A stretch of DNA of 64,000 nucleotides from contig CASFTW010000001.1 of NCBI GenBank assembly GCA_949297785.1, forward strand, positions 186,001-250,000, in the 5' to 3' direction. This document shows, piece by piece, positions 12,678 to 19,381 of the stretch (positions are counted from its first letter, which is position 1; each line of letters begins with the position of its first letter). A program made the translations under genes and the position numbers. Source of the DNA: an uncultured Spirochaetales bacterium (GTDB taxonomy: Bacteria > Spirochaetota > Spirochaetia > Sphaerochaetales > Sphaerochaetaceae). The notes under the pieces are model-generated. The model ran no database searches and was not told the DNA's origin. It was given only the letters and a program-made list of their open reading frames with translations.

Positions 12678-14172
12678 GTCATCATCCCTTGTGATGATGG
12701 TTTCGACCTTCATCTCAAGACTGCTGGGAATATTGAAGAGCAGGGCACTTGCCGTGTTTTTCGGCGCCGGTGCACTGAGCGATGCAGTCAACTTTGCATA
12801 CAATATTCCCAACAATTTCAGGAAGCTGTTTGCCGAAGGCTCTCTTTCACAGTCCTATCTTCCGCTTTTCTCTTCATTCACTCAGGACAGGGAAAGAAGC
12901 AGCAGACTGTACAGCCAGCTTGTGAGCTTCCTCTTCCTGATCTTTTTCTTTCTTTTCATCCTTTCCCTGTTTTTTTCAAAATCCCTCATAAAACTCATTT
13001 CCGGTTTCAGTGACGAATACAGAACTGGAGTCGCCGCATCGCTTCTTCCTTATTTCACTCTTTTCCTTTTCTTCATATCGCTGTCCACGCTTGTCAGCAC
13101 GATACTGCAGACCAGAAAGAGATTCATCGCATCAAGCATCGCACCTGTCTTTTTCACTCTCGGCATACTTGTCTCTCTTCCGCTGCTGAGCGGAAAGCTG
13201 AGCTATTATTCAATGGCCGTTGGTGTGATAACAGGCTCAGCCGCCCAGTTCCTCATTGTCTATTCCGGCTTCAGGAAACTCGGTCTTTGCTTCCGCTTCG
13301 ATTTTTCCTTTTCCTCTCCTGATTTCCGCTGTGTGCTTTCACGCTGGCTTCCTTCCAGCATCAGCAGCATTATTGCCATAGTTTCGCAGTCACTCACTCT
13401 CTTTCTGGCATCGGGCCTTGCGGAAGGTTCGGTGACAGCTTTCAGCAATGCCGTAATTTTCTATCAGGCGCCGTACGGAGTTTTCTTCGCATCCATTGCC
13501 GCAGTCTATTTTCCGCAGTTCTCGCAGGCGTCAGACGAGAAGGAAAGGGCAGGTCTGCTTTGTAAATCGATGGGGTACCTGTATACATTCCTACTGCCGT
13601 CCATGCTTATACTTTTTACCCTGAGCAGGGAATGCGTTGCTGTCGTACTGCAGAAAGGTGCATTCACGCTTGATGATACGCTGCTTACTGCCGGGGTGCT
13701 TGATTACTACCTTATTGCAATGCTGCCGCTGTCATTCTATTCAATACTGCAGCGCTATATGTTCAGCATAAACAGGTATTACACAAACCTGATTGTATCG
13801 GCATCTGTCACACTTATTGACCTCATGCTCACACTTTTCTTCATAAGATGCGGTTACGGGGTTTCATCCCTTGCAATCAGCTATATCTTCTCATCCCTTG
13901 CCGGTGCACTAATCCTCTTTGTCTTTGTAAGGGAATTTGAATACGGAAAACTATTCAGACAGCTTGTGAGACTGACACTCATAAACCTGCCGCTGATCAT
14001 CCTGTGTGCGGGATATAAAATATGGAGCCCGTCATTCTATGAGACAGGCTCCACACTTGTCAATTTCATCAGGACTTGCCTGACCGGACTTTCTTTCGCG
14101 GCAGTCACGGTGATTATGTACGTTATCTGCCGTGTAGATTTCCTTTCACAGCTTAAAAGGAAGCGGTCCTGA
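12661..14172 (+). CDS. murJ: Lipid II flippase MurJ (MviN family)
   Basis: MurJ flips undecaprenyl-linked lipid II across the inner membrane for peptidoglycan synthesis. The 503-residue product is polytopic with about 14 hydrophobic segments. It has the family N-terminus SSLVMMVSTFISRLLGILKSRALAVFFGAG and the AFNIPN-like DAVNFAYNIPNNFRKLFAEGSLSQSYLPLF block. I chose the ATG at 12661, inside the end of tgt, because upstream in-frame codons give no conserved sequence. It runs convergently into the greA gene, with a 20-nt overlap of coding regions. Confidence 0.92.
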   Translation: MERKSESSSLVMMVSTFISRLLGILKSRALAVFFGAGALSDAVNFAYNIPNNFRKLFAEGSLSQSYLPLFSSFTQDRERSSRLYSQLVSFLFLIFFFLFILSLFFSKSLIKLISGFSDEYRTGVAASLLPYFTLFLFFISLSTLVSTILQTRKRFIASSIAPVFFTLGILVSLPLLSGKLSYYSMAVGVITGSAAQFLIVYSGFRKLGLCFRFDFSFSSPDFRCVLSRWLPSSISSIIAIVSQSLTLFLASGLAEGSVTAFSNAVIFYQAPYGVFFASIAAVYFPQFSQASDEKERAGLLCKSMGYLYTFLLPSMLILFTLSRECVAVVLQKGAFTLDDTLLTAGVLDYYLIAMLPLSFYSILQRYMFSINRYYTNLIVSASVTLIDLMLTLFFIRCGYGVSSLAISYIFSSLAGALILFVFVREFEYGKLFRQLVRLTLINLPLIILCAGYKIWSPSFYETGSTLVNFIRTCLTGLSFAAVTVIMYVICRVDFLSQLKRKRS

Positions 14173-16846
14173 TGGAAAGAACCTTGTAGCTGTACGGATT
14201 GCCGTTAATTGAGAAGTCAAGCTCATCACCGACAGTCTTGTTCAGAAGCTTCATTCCAAGCGGCGTCTTGAAGTTCAGTATACCGTTGTCGGGGTCGGAC
14301 TCCCACTGGCCGAGAATGGTGTAGGTGATATCTTTGTCCTGCAGATTGTCATGGAGGGTGACTTCTGTTCCGAAACTGATTTTCGAGTCATTAACCATGT
14401 CAGGAGTGATGACCTGAGCCTTCTCGATTTCATCGGTAAGGGTTCTGAGCCTTGCATTGAGGTTTTTCTGCTTATCCTTGCCGTACTGGTATTCCGCATT
14501 CTCCCTGAGGTCCCCAAGCGCTCTTGCATCGGCAATCTCGCTTGCCACTTCCTGAAGCTCTACATGCTCGATGTGCTCTTTTTCCTTTATCTTCTCATCA
14601 AGGGCCTTCTTCGTGCACAGGAAGCCCATCGGAATGAGACTGTCCTCATCGATTGTGATGTGCTGGTCGTCAAAGAAGGTGAAGTCGGGATAGAGCTCGC
14701 CGATGAAATGCTTGACTTCAATCACCAGACCCTTGTCAATGTTCTTGTCATTGGCAATGATCGAATAGATTTTGGATGCAAAGCTCTCGTCACCGCTCTT
14801 GAGCGCCTTGTATATTTGCTTTTCCTTGAAGAGGTAGTTCACGACAAGATCCTTTCTCTTCTTGTTCTCGCTGACATCTTTCTTCACATCGATGAGGGAT
14901 GCGGTATAGTCAAGAACGAGGAGAAGGGTGAGTATGAGCTCATCGGCACTGATGCCGGCCTTTGTCCACTCGGCCTCGCTCGCATTCTTGTAGTTCCAGA
15001 GGAATACATCGACGTTCTCCTTGTAGGAGCGGACACTGGATGAGAGAATATCGAGATAGATGCTCTCCTTGCCGTTTGCCTTGAGAATGTTCGGGATCCA
15101 GGAATATGTGTAGTATGCGAAACATTTCCTGAACACATCAGGCCAGTTCCTGTCACAGTTCATCACGTTCTCAAGATAGCTCTTCTTGAGATCTGCATTG
15201 TTGATGGAATCGAATACTGCGGTCTTGTCCTCACAGTTTTTATAAAGGTCTGCGAAGGAAACGCTGGTATCGATGACAGCTGTCGGTATATGAAGCTGGT
15301 TCCTGAAATTGTCAAGCAGCAGGAAGGATGCCATGACTTTATCGTCAACACCGCTCTTCATATTCGCAAGCTCGCTGTTGAAATATTTGACCATTTCGGA
15401 GAAAGCCTCTGATTCTGTATCCAGATCAAGGGCGATGAACTCCTTTGCAATCCTGATCCTGCCGTAGAAATCCTTCTCTCCGAGGAATGTGACAAGCTGC
15501 TTCTCCTCCTGTGTGATCGGAGTGGTCCTGAGAGTGTAGGTGTCATTCTCGCCTGCGATCGATGAGAAATAAGGATCTTCCTGAAGTATCTTCTTCGCCT
15601 TCGTCTTGAAATCATCCCACTCTGAAGCATTTAGGACGGAAGGAACAAGCTCTTCCTTGATCTCCTTGATCGAACACTTGTTGTTGCGGCTTTCCATGAT
15701 TGTCACAAGAGCCCAGCGGGTGTCGGCCTTGACCTTTGCGGCAAGCTTTGCGGGGATTGCGGTCTTGAGCACGAGAATATTGTTCTTGGGAAGCGGAGTG
15801 AGAGCCTTGAATGCCATATCCGGTGACATGGAAATCTTGCTGGCCTTGTTGAAGGCTACAACAACTTCCCTGTCGTTTATGCTCTGTATGAGGCCGAGCC
15901 TGTCCGTGCTTCTCTGATATACGAAACTGCCGACATCAAAACCGATATCGGTTTCGAAGAAGCTTATCGCCTTGTTCACATCTTCCCCTGGATTTGCAAG
16001 ACCTGAACGCTCAATGCATTTACTGAGGCGTGCGGACTTCTCGTACTTCTTCCTGTAAACCTTGATGAGCTCTTCCCTGGGTCTCTTCTCCGACGGGTCG
16101 ATCTCAAGAGCCTTCTTGAGTATCTGTATGGACTTGTTCACATCAGATGCGAAATGTGTGTAAAGGTCTGAAAGCAGTTCGATTGCAAGTGCCTTGCTGA
16201 GTGATGCCGCAACCTTTTCACCGATGCCGAGGAAATAGCCGAAATCATCATTCTGGATGGAAAGCAGGAGCGACCATATGTTCTTCACGCCTTCGGCGTC
16301 CTTTGCGCTTATATAGCGTGTGAGCGCACGGCGGTAATAGAGGAGGGCCTTGTCTTTATCTCCTTTCTCCATGAAATGATCTGCAAGATTCTTTGTGATC
16401 TTCTTTTCCTCGAAGTCGACCTTGACGAGTCTTTCGAGTATGCCCCATCTTTGCTCATCACGGCCTTCTTCCTCATAGCAGTCTGCAAGAATGCGCAGTG
16501 CGAGTTTGTTCTCGCTGAATGAAAGGATCTTGCGGCAGAGGAATTCCACGACAATCCAGTTGTGGTTGTCATAGAAAGTGATCAGAAGATTCTGCATTAT
16601 TATGTTGTCTTCATGGGGACGGCGGATGAATGCGATTGTGCCAAGCACATAGCGGGCATATACGGAATTCTCCCTCTCGCCCGTGATCTCAAGCGCCTTT
16701 GCTGAAAGCTCGCTCAGATCTTCGTAGTCAAGCTTGTTCGCGCACTTGTCGATTTCAAAGAAGCTGTCAGTCGGGAATGAGGCAAGTTCAGCCTTTGAGA
16801 AATCCCTGTCTTCCTTCAGTATTTTTGTAATGGAGTTGCTTCTCAT
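14153..16846 (-). CDS. greA: Long GreA-type transcription elongation factor with N-terminal helical-repeat extension
   Basis: The last roughly 155 residues are a complete GreA: coiled coil with the tip motif GDLRENAEYQYGKDKQ (acidic residues that enter the RNAP secondary channel) and the C-terminal FKBP-like domain ending in NPYSYKVLSI. GreA rescues backtracked RNA polymerase by stimulating transcript cleavage. The preceding 740 residues are an extension with TPR-like helical pairs in the first 300, as seen in spirochaete GreA proteins of this size; a typical GreA is about 158 residues. The ATG at 16846 has AAGGAG about 9 nt upstream; a TTG two codons earlier overlaps that site. A hairpin and T tract lie in the leader. 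Confidence 0.9.
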   Translation of the reverse strand: MRSNSITKILKEDRDFSKAELASFPTDSFFEIDKCANKLDYEDLSELSAKALEITGERENSVYARYVLGTIAFIRRPHEDNIIMQNLLITFYDNHNWIVVEFLCRKILSFSENKLALRILADCYEEEGRDEQRWGILERLVKVDFEEKKITKNLADHFMEKGDKDKALLYYRRALTRYISAKDAEGVKNIWSLLLSIQNDDFGYFLGIGEKVAASLSKALAIELLSDLYTHFASDVNKSIQILKKALEIDPSEKRPREELIKVYRKKYEKSARLSKCIERSGLANPGEDVNKAISFFETDIGFDVGSFVYQRSTDRLGLIQSINDREVVVAFNKASKISMSPDMAFKALTPLPKNNILVLKTAIPAKLAAKVKADTRWALVTIMESRNNKCSIKEIKEELVPSVLNASEWDDFKTKAKKILQEDPYFSSIAGENDTYTLRTTPITQEEKQLVTFLGEKDFYGRIRIAKEFIALDLDTESEAFSEMVKYFNSELANMKSGVDDKVMASFLLLDNFRNQLHIPTAVIDTSVSFADLYKNCEDKTAVFDSINNADLKKSYLENVMNCDRNWPDVFRKCFAYYTYSWIPNILKANGKESIYLDILSSSVRSYKENVDVFLWNYKNASEAEWTKAGISADELILTLLLVLDYTASLIDVKKDVSENKKRKDLVVNYLFKEKQIYKALKSGDESFASKIYSIIANDKNIDKGLVIEVKHFIGELYPDFTFFDDQHITIDEDSLIPMGFLCTKKALDEKIKEKEHIEHVELQEVASEIADARALGDLRENAEYQYGKDKQKNLNARLRTLTDEIEKAQVITPDMVNDSKISFGTEVTLHDNLQDKDITYTILGQWESDPDNGILNFKTPLGMKLLNKTVGDELDFSINGNPYSYKVLSIRTASF

Positions 16847-16885
16847 ACACAAACTCTCCTTAAATTTTTTTCTTCCGGATAATCG

Positions 16886-16991: not shown

Positions 16992-18167
16992 TTACGTAGG
17001 TCCTGACGGCTTTTCCCCATCATTTCCGGCTTCTGAGACTTTGCCTTTCACGCTGAGCCTTGACAGCCTGTATTCCTTCAGGAGCGTGAAACAGATTGAG
17101 CCGACCGGTATTACAAAGAGCATGCCGGCAATGCCGAAAAGCGCACCTGAAAGCGTGACGAGGGTAAACGTGTATACGGAAGGCAGTCCCATTGAGCCCC
17201 CGACGACCTTCGGGTATATGAGGTTGCCCTCAAGCTGCTGCAGGATGATTATGAATACTATGAAGAAAACCGCCTTCAAAGGTGATGTTGCGGCAATGAT
17301 CAGGGCGCCGGACACAGCTCCCGCATATGCTCCGTATACCGGAACAAGAGCGGTTATGCCGGTAAGCACGCCCACTGCCGCTGCATCCGGAAGGCGGAAG
17401 ATCAGCATTCCCGCTGTGCACAGGATGCCTATTATCGCAGCTTCCGTCACCTGTGCGCTTATGAAACGGGAAAATGCGCTGTTCGCAACACTGGCGATGT
17501 GGATTATCCTGCTGACTGTCTTTTCACTGAAAACAAGCGAGATCAGTGTTTTCACATGACGGGAAAGCATTTCCTTCGAGCTGATGAAATAAACGGCGAA
17601 GATAAGTGCTATGAAGAAAGTCACGGCTGACGATACGGTGAGCATTATCGTGTTTATTGTGGTTCTGATGAAAGCGGGCGAGCTGTCTTTAAGATATGAT
17701 GTCACCATATCTTCAAGTTCCTCAATGCTCATGCCGAGCCAGGAAAGGAGGTCTTCAATAAGATCCGCAAGCTGCGTTCCACCGTCTGAGGAAGCTTCCA
17801 GCCGGTATATAAGGCTGTCAATTGATGCGACAAGCGTTCCAAGAGCCTGGGTGAGGGAGGGGATGATGAACATCAGCAGTGCGGCACACAGAGCGATGAG
17901 ACACACAATGGATATCACAATGGAGAAAGCCCTGCTGTATTTCTTCAGAATCCCGTTTCCTTTTGTCTTTCCTATCAGCCTTTCAATGAAACTCACCGGT
18001 ATATTGAGAATGAAAGCCGTTATGAAGCCGAGCGTGATCGTGGAGAAGCCGGTAGAGAGGAATGAGGTGACATCGCTCAATGCCGATGTGAAATTCTGCA
18101 GGAAGGTGTAAAGGACAATGAAAAATGATCCCAGAAGCAGAAGCGCGAGTATCTGTTTTTTGTTCAT
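16992..18167 (-). CDS. AI-2E family (PerM/TqsA-like) membrane permease
   Basis: A 391-residue polytopic protein of the AI-2E/PerM family (old UPF0118). It has paired N-terminal membrane segments (about 8-30, 35-55), a central soluble region (about 110-165) and C-terminal membrane segments. These include the family-typical PDAAAVGVLTGITALVPVYGAYAG and the QQLEGNLIYPKVVGGSMGLP motif near residues 313-332. Substrates differ between members (autoinducer-2, ions, unknown), so none is assigned. There is no Shine-Dalgarno sequence; TTGAAA-17-TATCAT lies 7 nt before the ATG, so the mRNA looks leaderless. The gene is divergent from rpe. Confidence 0.85.
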   Translation of the reverse strand: MNKKQILALLLLGSFFIVLYTFLQNFTSALSDVTSFLSTGFSTITLGFITAFILNIPVSFIERLIGKTKGNGILKKYSRAFSIVISIVCLIALCAALLMFIIPSLTQALGTLVASIDSLIYRLEASSDGGTQLADLIEDLLSWLGMSIEELEDMVTSYLKDSSPAFIRTTINTIMLTVSSAVTFFIALIFAVYFISSKEMLSRHVKTLISLVFSEKTVSRIIHIASVANSAFSRFISAQVTEAAIIGILCTAGMLIFRLPDAAAVGVLTGITALVPVYGAYAGAVSGALIIAATSPLKAVFFIVFIIILQQLEGNLIYPKVVGGSMGLPSVYTFTLVTLSGALFGIAGMLFVIPVGSICFTLLKEYRLSRLSVKGKVSEAGNDGEKPSGPT

Positions 18168-18174
18168 GTGGATG

Positions 18175-18226
18175 ATGATAGTTTCTAAAAGCTTTTATTT
18201 CAATTATTCTTCATTTGGGTTATACT
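18175..18226. promoter_or_regulatory. Divergent leaderless promoters sharing one -35 hexamer
   Basis: Minus strand: TTGAAA (18198-18203), 17 bp, TATCAT (18175-18180), 7 nt, ATG of the AI-2E permease. Plus strand: the same hexamer read as TTTCAA (a weak -35), 17 bp, TATACT (18221-18226), 7 nt, ATG of rpe. Neither start codon has a ribosome-binding site. Expected transcription starts fall on or next to both ATGs. Confidence 0.7.
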
Positions 18227-18233
18227 CATTCAC

Positions 18234-18911
18234 ATGTATGACAAGCGAATAGAAATTGCACCTTCGATTCTTTCCGCCAGTTTCGCATCAGTGCTGAACG
18301 CGCTCAGGGATGCGGAAGAGGCCGGAGCCGAGTATCTTCACCTGGACGTGATGGACGGAGTCTTCGTTCCGCAGATAACTTTCGGATCGAAATTCATCAA
18401 GGACATAAGACCGCACAGCGACCTGCTGTTCGATGCCCATCTGATGATAGTGAATCCCGAGAACCATATCGATGATTTCATTGATGCCGGATGCAACATG
18501 ATAACCATCCATCAGGAAAGCACTGTTCACCTTCACAGGGTTCTTTCACATATAAAGGAAAGAGGCGTGAAATGCGGCATATCGATCGTACCGTCGACAC
18601 CGGTGAGCGCCATAACACCTCTGCTGGACATGGTTGATCTTGTGCTCGTAATGACGGTTAACCCGGGCTGGGCCGGACAGAAGCTGATTCCCGGCTGCAT
18701 CAACAAGATAGTCGAGCTCAAGGAACTGCGCGAGAGCGAGGATTATGATTATGCCATCAGCGTTGACGGAGGTGTGAACCTCGGTACAATCCAGGATGTC
18801 GTGGCTGCAGGAGCCGACATTGCCGTGGCGGGATCTGCTTTCTACAATGAAAGCGACAAGCTTTCCTTCATGCAGAGAATGCAGGAACTTGCAATGGAGA
18901 GTTTCAAATGA
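18234..18911 (+). CDS. rpe: Ribulose-phosphate 3-epimerase
   Basis: Rpe interconverts ribulose-5-phosphate and xylulose-5-phosphate in the pentose phosphate pathway. The 225-residue TIM-barrel protein shows IAPSILSASFA, the metal-binding HLDVMDGVFVPQITFG with the first catalytic Asp, DAHLMI, and VLVMTVNPGWAGQKLIP. The second catalytic Asp is in ISVDGGVN and the phosphate loop is VAGSAFY. The ATG has no ribosome site and sits 7 nt after TATACT, so the transcript is probably leaderless. The stop overlaps the dtd start (ATGA). Confidence 0.95.
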   Translation: MYDKRIEIAPSILSASFASVLNALRDAEEAGAEYLHLDVMDGVFVPQITFGSKFIKDIRPHSDLLFDAHLMIVNPENHIDDFIDAGCNMITIHQESTVHLHRVLSHIKERGVKCGISIVPSTPVSAITPLLDMVDLVLVMTVNPGWAGQKLIPGCINKIVELKELRESEDYDYAISVDGGVNLGTIQDVVAAGADIAVAGSAFYNESDKLSFMQRMQELAMESFK

Positions 18912-19381
18912 TAGCTGTCATCCAGAGTGTTGAGAACGCATCCGTGTCGATCGGCGGCTCTCCTGTTTCTTCCATCGAGAAGGGCATGCTTGTCTATTTC
19001 GGTGTGGAAAAAGGCGATGATGAGGCTGTTCTTGACAAGTTCCTTGAGAAAATGATGAAGCTGAGGATCTTCAAGGATGAGAATGAGAAGATGAATCTTT
19101 CCCTTTCCCAGACAGGGGGAGATGTCATGATGATCAGCCAGTTCACCCTTACCGGCGACATATATAAAGGCAACCGCCCCGGTTTCGACAATGCCGCATC
19201 TCCCGATGATGCCAGACAGCTTTACGAGAAAGCCGTCGGCATGCTCCGCGATATGGGATACAGGGTTGCGACAGGAATGTTCGGAGAGCATATGAAGGTG
19301 GTGTATTGCAATGACGGGCCGGAAACTTTTATTCTTGACTCCGCACGTCTTTTGCACAGATCTCAGAAAAAATTTGTATAG
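18908..19381 (+). CDS. dtd: D-aminoacyl-tRNA deacylase
   Basis: DTD removes D-amino acids (and glycine) mischarged on tRNAs. The 157-residue product has the family motif SQFTLTGD with its catalytic-site Thr, a GNRPGFDNAA block corresponding to the usual KGxRPSF motif, and DGPETFILDS, standing in for the Gly-cisPro GPVT motif (here GPETF). A C-terminal tail of about 12 residues is extra. It overlaps rpe by 4 nt and is followed 21 nt later by recA. Confidence 0.93.
   Translation: MIAVIQSVENASVSIGGSPVSSIEKGMLVYFGVEKGDDEAVLDKFLEKMMKLRIFKDENEKMNLSLSQTGGDVMMISQFTLTGDIYKGNRPGFDNAASPDDARQLYEKAVGMLRDMGYRVATGMFGEHMKVVYCNDGPETFILDSARLLHRSQKKFV

Follow-up and report, generated by a model that had tools for sequence, protein, structure and literature searches.

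Two putative overlapping divergent promoters, probably leaderless, between rpe and an AI-2E family transporter gene in an uncultured Spirochaetales bacterium

Results and discussion

Organization of the locus

The window analysed here, a stretch of 64,000 nucleotides from an uncultured Spirochaetales bacterium, contains a gene encoding an AI-2E family transporter on the minus strand and the gene encoding ribulose-phosphate 3-epimerase (rpe) on the plus strand. These genes are divergent and are separated by 66 bp (Table 1). The hexamers, coordinates and spacings given for this gap (18168-18233) in the original prediction were all found to be correct when the sequence was read directly. The minus strand carries a full set of promoter elements, and TTGAAA-17-TATCAT, which agrees with the consensus at 10 of 12 positions, is among the best promoter-like sites nearby. 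On the plus strand there is a good -10, accompanied by a -35 with only three of the six consensus bases; the consensus scan lists the minus-strand promoter only and the rpe promoter is absent from it. Moreover, none of the Shine-Dalgarno (SD) motifs AGGA, GGAG, GAGG, AGGT, AAGG and GGTG was found between positions -18 and -4 of either gene, and both genes figure among the SD-less candidates. The gene encoding the D-aminoacyl-tRNA deacylase overlaps the stop codon of rpe (ATGA) and these two genes are likely to be co-transcribed.

Table 1. Features of the rpe/AI-2E intergenic region and of the adjoining genes, with positions numbered within the window
Feature	Position	Strand	Evidence or remark
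AI-2E family transporter gene	16992..18167	minus	ATG 18167-18165, 391 aa; Pfam PF01594, E=2.2e-38
Gap between -10 and AI-2E ATG, CATCCAC, 7 nt	18174-18168	minus	No Shine-Dalgarno sequence
AI-2E promoter -10, TATCAT	18180-18175	minus	Direct sequence read; consensus scan
AI-2E promoter spacer, 17 nt	18197-18181	minus	Direct sequence read
AI-2E promoter -35, TTGAAA (5/6)	18203-18198	minus	TTG at a spacer of 17-18 in 9/11 orthologues
Putative rpe -35, TTTCAA (3/6), weak, probably no true -35	18198-18203	plus	0/10 rpe orthologues with TTG
rpe promoter spacer, 17 nt	18204-18220	plus	Direct sequence read
rpe promoter -10, TATACT	18221-18226	plus	TANNNT 6-8 nt before start in 21/30 relatives
Gap between -10 and rpe ATG, CATTCAC, 7 nt	18227-18233	plus	No Shine-Dalgarno sequence
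rpe, ribulose-phosphate 3-epimerase, 225 aa	18234..18911	plus	TIGR01163 above cutoff
D-aminoacyl-tRNA deacylase gene	18908..19381	plus	TIGR00256; SD-like GGAGAG

After 200,000 dinucleotide shuffles, 0.8% of the shuffled 66-bp sequences presented a -10 on both sides, scored as TANNNT 6-8 nt away from the ATG, and 0.05% combined the two -10s with a -35 of at least 5/6 on one side. The arrangement is therefore unlikely to be pure chance.

The AI-2E gene is adjoined by a gene encoding a GreA of 899 aa that is considerably extended at its N-terminus (14153-16852, minus strand) and scored 685 bits against NCBIfam PRK14720, for which the cutoff is 714. This long GreA and the gene content agree with a spirochaetal origin of the genome. 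In several relatives rpe directly faces the GreA gene, from which it diverges. A search for RNA structures and riboswitches returned two snoRNA matches only, both far under the gathering score and thus attributable to chance, and a search for AI-2E among genome contigs returned distant unrelated loci only.

Conservation of the starts and of the gene adjacency

The two species closest to this one, G001 and G010, still have both -10s 6-7 nt from the ATGs and preserve the exact 17/17 spacing around the central hexamer. In G010 the minus-strand -10 is substituted to TATGAT and one nucleotide is deleted before the ATG, and the distance between them is still 6-7 nt. The look-alike 7-mers CATCCAC and CATTCAC were considered as a signal and rejected because they are not conserved (CATCCTC/CATTCAC in G001 and TCTGAC/CATTGAC in G010).

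Among a wider set of relatives, rpe has TANNNT 6-8 nt before its start in 21 out of 30, compared with 0-6 (mean about 3) at eight control offsets. For AI-2E, a -10 is present 6-8 nt before the start in nine of the 11 genus orthologues listed, with the forms TATCAT, TAGAAT or TATAAT in other species; in G011 the distance to the ATG is 6 nt. In G008 and G014 the AI-2E -10 and the presumed start codon are separated by 9-10 nt, which would allow a leader of 2-3 nt. Beyond G001 and G010 the upstream neighbours of rpe are a Vut_1 transporter gene and a gene without Pfam match, or the GreA gene, and the AI-2E orthologues are mostly divergent from the Vut_1 transporter gene (PF02592) and not from rpe. 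As the -10s are kept with differing neighbours, the feature belongs to each gene separately and is independent of their adjacency. Alignment of the intergenic region in relatives had been proposed as a check on the claim that both messages lack a leader; the -10/ATG spacing did turn out to be conserved for both genes, and this conservation, along with the genome-wide class described below, indicates that both mRNAs are probably leaderless. Further promoters may exist upstream, in addition to the predicted leaderless ones.

In a tree of rpe and AI-2E, G014 groups with the present genome (G000), G001 and G010 with a support of 81. In these four genomes the Vut_1 gene is located elsewhere, which makes AI-2E and rpe direct neighbours. 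The gap in G014 is 95-98 bp, and with this wider gap the 66-bp overlap is observed in G000, G001 and G010 only. Six other genomes (G012, G002, G009, G015, G008 and G005) have AI-2E divergent from the Vut_1 (YhhQ-like) transporter gene with gaps of about 60-83 bp, most sides of which look leaderless. The 60-bp gap of G015 presents interleaved -35s, TTGCAC-18-TATATT versus TTGAAA-17-TAGAAT.

A predicted leaderless class in the same genome

The survey covered 831 kb of the same genome, which totals 2.2 Mb in 50 contigs, with gene calls and starts from a home-made caller. For 192 first genes devoid of an SD, 68 matches to TANNNT were counted 6-8 nt before the start, whereas 12.8 were expected from distant offsets. 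In the same 831 kb no excess was seen for first genes with an SD (five matches in 205) or for operon-internal genes (four in 291). In the 66 candidate genes, the frequency of TTG is highest when the spacer is exactly 17 (14/66, against about one for each other spacing) and a pyrimidine occupies position -1 in 56. Neither of these signals was used in choosing the candidates, and both fit transcription starting at the A of the ATG. A TTG-type -35 at 16-18 bp is visible in a third of them. In Leptospira, another spirochaete, leaderless mRNAs are common by dRNA-seq (PMC5243855), and predicted leaderless genes have been put at about 4% on average in six of 18 spirochaete genomes (PMC3160421). The present group of spirochaetes probably has leaderless expression that is both old and widespread, and rpe provides a well-conserved example of it.

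Tight double-leaderless pairs were rejected as a genome-wide rule, since a -10 at 6-8 nt is present on both sides in nine of 95 divergent pairs against 3-5 at control offsets, a mild excess only. Among the double -10 cases of these 95 pairs rpe/AI-2E is the sole one as tight as 66 bp. An apparent preference of divergent gaps for 62-67 bp was also discarded, as it became weaker when the sample was enlarged. In addition, the G+C content is 35% in G000:C2:1-20000 and 39% in G000:C3:1-20000, compared with about 47% in most of the sampled genome; foreign DNA or a binning error are possible explanations for these two stretches.

The lepB pair and its symmetric -35

A second tight divergent pair (67 bp, G000:C1:167952-168018) is placed about 18 kb before the window. 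This lepB pair is composed of the gene encoding signal peptidase I (PF10502) and a gene with an FGE-sulfatase domain (PF03781). Its gap contains the near-palindromic TTGTCAA, which reads as TTGTCA on one strand and as TTGACA on the other, with a -10 on each side at 17-18 bp and 6 and 9 nt from the ATGs; across the genus the distance between these -10s and the ATGs is 6-10 nt. In the lepB upstream regions, TTGTCAA flanked on either side by TANNNT at 17-18 bp is present in 22 of 23 species, belonging to eight genera and two families; the alignment was anchored on TGTCAA, so the core matches by construction, and the flanking -10s lie outside the anchor. Moreover, TTGNCAA with -10s on both sides has a single match in the 831 kb, which is the lepB pair itself. 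Judging from its sequence, this pair is the true form of one symmetric -35 for two predicted opposite promoters, and it offers a clean natural test of whether two opposite promoters can hold one -35 and whether this double duty slows evolution. Another divergent gap, of 65 bp (G000:C1:101457-101521), also has a central TTGTCAA and no good minus-strand -10 with the called start.

Assignment of the -35 hexamer and alternative explanations

The original prediction regarded the hexamer between rpe and AI-2E as a -35 shared by the two genes. The part that concerns AI-2E stands: nine out of the 11 orthologues of AI-2E have a TTG 16-18 bp from the -10, and the -35 remains TTGAAA at 17 bp in two genomes with AI-2E opposite Vut_1, namely G015 and G008. 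As the TTG is conserved with AI-2E even opposite Vut_1, the hexamer can be assigned to the AI-2E promoter. The part that concerns rpe is not supported, because TTG at this distance is present in none of ten rpe orthologues and because TTTCAA matches TTGACA at three positions, compared with five for TTGAAA. Three of six is the background level, being the best match at 34% of random positions. The presence of the same hexamer for rpe can be explained by the fact that every hexamer has a complement, and TTGAAA is not symmetric. A symmetric -35 with a good match on both strands and conserved with both genes was thus not found at rpe/AI-2E, and transcription of rpe seems to rely chiefly on the -10 of its promoter.

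The lepB pair nevertheless leaves room for a broader explanation, in which one symmetric -35 for two leaderless promoters would be a distinct compact design, of about 62-69 bp from ATG to ATG, fixed in the family at lepB. The rpe/AI-2E gap would then be a younger or half-formed example, with rpe also using the AI-2E -35. We regard this as doubtful, albeit conceivable.

It is unlikely that sigma region 4 binds the one hexamer both ways, with a single -35 serving both genes and switching them in a mutually exclusive manner. The exact 17/17 spacing, which G001 and G010 also present, would agree with it, as would the existence of a true shared -35 at lepB in the same genome; however, both the background-level match of TTTCAA and the distribution of TTG among the orthologues argue against it. 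As for the switching, the products of rpe and AI-2E have no evident opposed roles, and five bidirectional promoters of E. coli showed no competition at basal activity, which appeared only with one side strongly activated (PMC12825309).

Even less probable is the explanation that the conserved middle of the gap, AAAGCTTTTATTTCAATT, serves as the operator through which a regulator acts on both genes. Although 18 bases, including the AT-rich near-palindrome TAAAAGCTTTTA, are identical in G000, G001 and G010, this identity covers three close species only, the middle was not found upstream of the more distant orthologues, and in G010 the palindrome is broken (TTAAAGCTTTTA). Finally, it is highly improbable that the -10-like hexamers are due to chance and that transcription starts further upstream, within the neighbouring genes, because, even though the 66 bp are AT-rich and a -10 at 6-8 nt is obtained on at least one side in 20% of the shuffles, the hexamers are conserved across family-level relatives and in orthologues with unrelated flanks, and neither gene has an SD.

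Proposed arrangement and occupancy

From the evidence of sequence and conservation we consider it quite probable that the gap holds two overlapping divergent leaderless promoters, that of AI-2E with a -35 and a -10 and that of rpe driven mainly by its -10. The 66 bp would consist of two back-to-back promoters for the housekeeping sigma factor, with overlapping polymerase sites, and the first base of each transcript would be the A of the ATG or lie one or two bases from it, leaving no leader. The AI-2E promoter would be of the ordinary -35/-10 type (TTGAAA-17-TATCAT). In the rpe promoter TATACT would be the main element, accompanied by a poor -35 or by none, and the complement of the AI-2E -35 would stand at the right distance by chance. 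The tightness of the gap can be explained by the predicted lack of a 5' leader on either side, along with the fact that AI-2E and rpe are immediate neighbours in this group of species. In this way, the lack of leaders would allow two divergent genes to be as close as 66 bp, their polymerase sites overlapping each other.

Taking the textbook size of the polymerase footprint, the two footprints are expected to overlap by spacing, as the predicted starts are 66 bp apart and the -35 regions coincide. With the upstream halves of both sites coinciding, two sigma-70-type holoenzymes should not be able to bind together on grounds of geometry, which agrees with the earlier proposal that one polymerase could occupy the site at a time. 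Mutually exclusive expression of rpe and AI-2E is possible; since the effect of the overlap depends on occupancy, as in the E. coli promoters mentioned above, exclusion is not expected by default.

Comparison with known systems

Leaderless genes with a -10 adjacent to the open reading frame have been described in Deinococcus, Mycobacterium and Leptospira, where they likewise have TANNNT at some 6-8 nt from the start codon, lack an SD and form a genome-wide class (PMC12340547, PMC3898074, PMC5243855, PMC3160421). Both rpe and AI-2E have the -10 at 6-8 nt and no SD. The class differs here in being a predicted one and in that a third of the candidates have a visible TTG-type -35 with a spacing of 16-18 bp. 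The adjacent genes prpD and Rv1129c of M. tuberculosis are also divergent and both leaderless (PMC3898074), and the likeness to rpe/AI-2E refers to orientation and leaderlessness. The PCR and PM promoters of the EcoRV system are likewise divergent, with partly overlapping polymerase sites that cannot be occupied simultaneously (PMC5333194); however, they are under the control of the C protein and the C transcript is not leaderless, whereas rpe/AI-2E has no known regulator. The bidirectional promoters with -10 symmetry described by Warman, Grainger and colleagues also produce two opposite transcripts from a short DNA. These promoters share the -10, and the distance between their starts is 18 bp in the usual case and 7-25 bp by definition (PMC10268837), whereas at rpe/AI-2E the predicted starts are 66 bp apart, the -10s are separate and any common part is the -35 area, which places it outside the -10-symmetric definition. 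The rpe/AI-2E gap thus belongs to known kinds, namely leaderless genes and overlapping divergent promoters.
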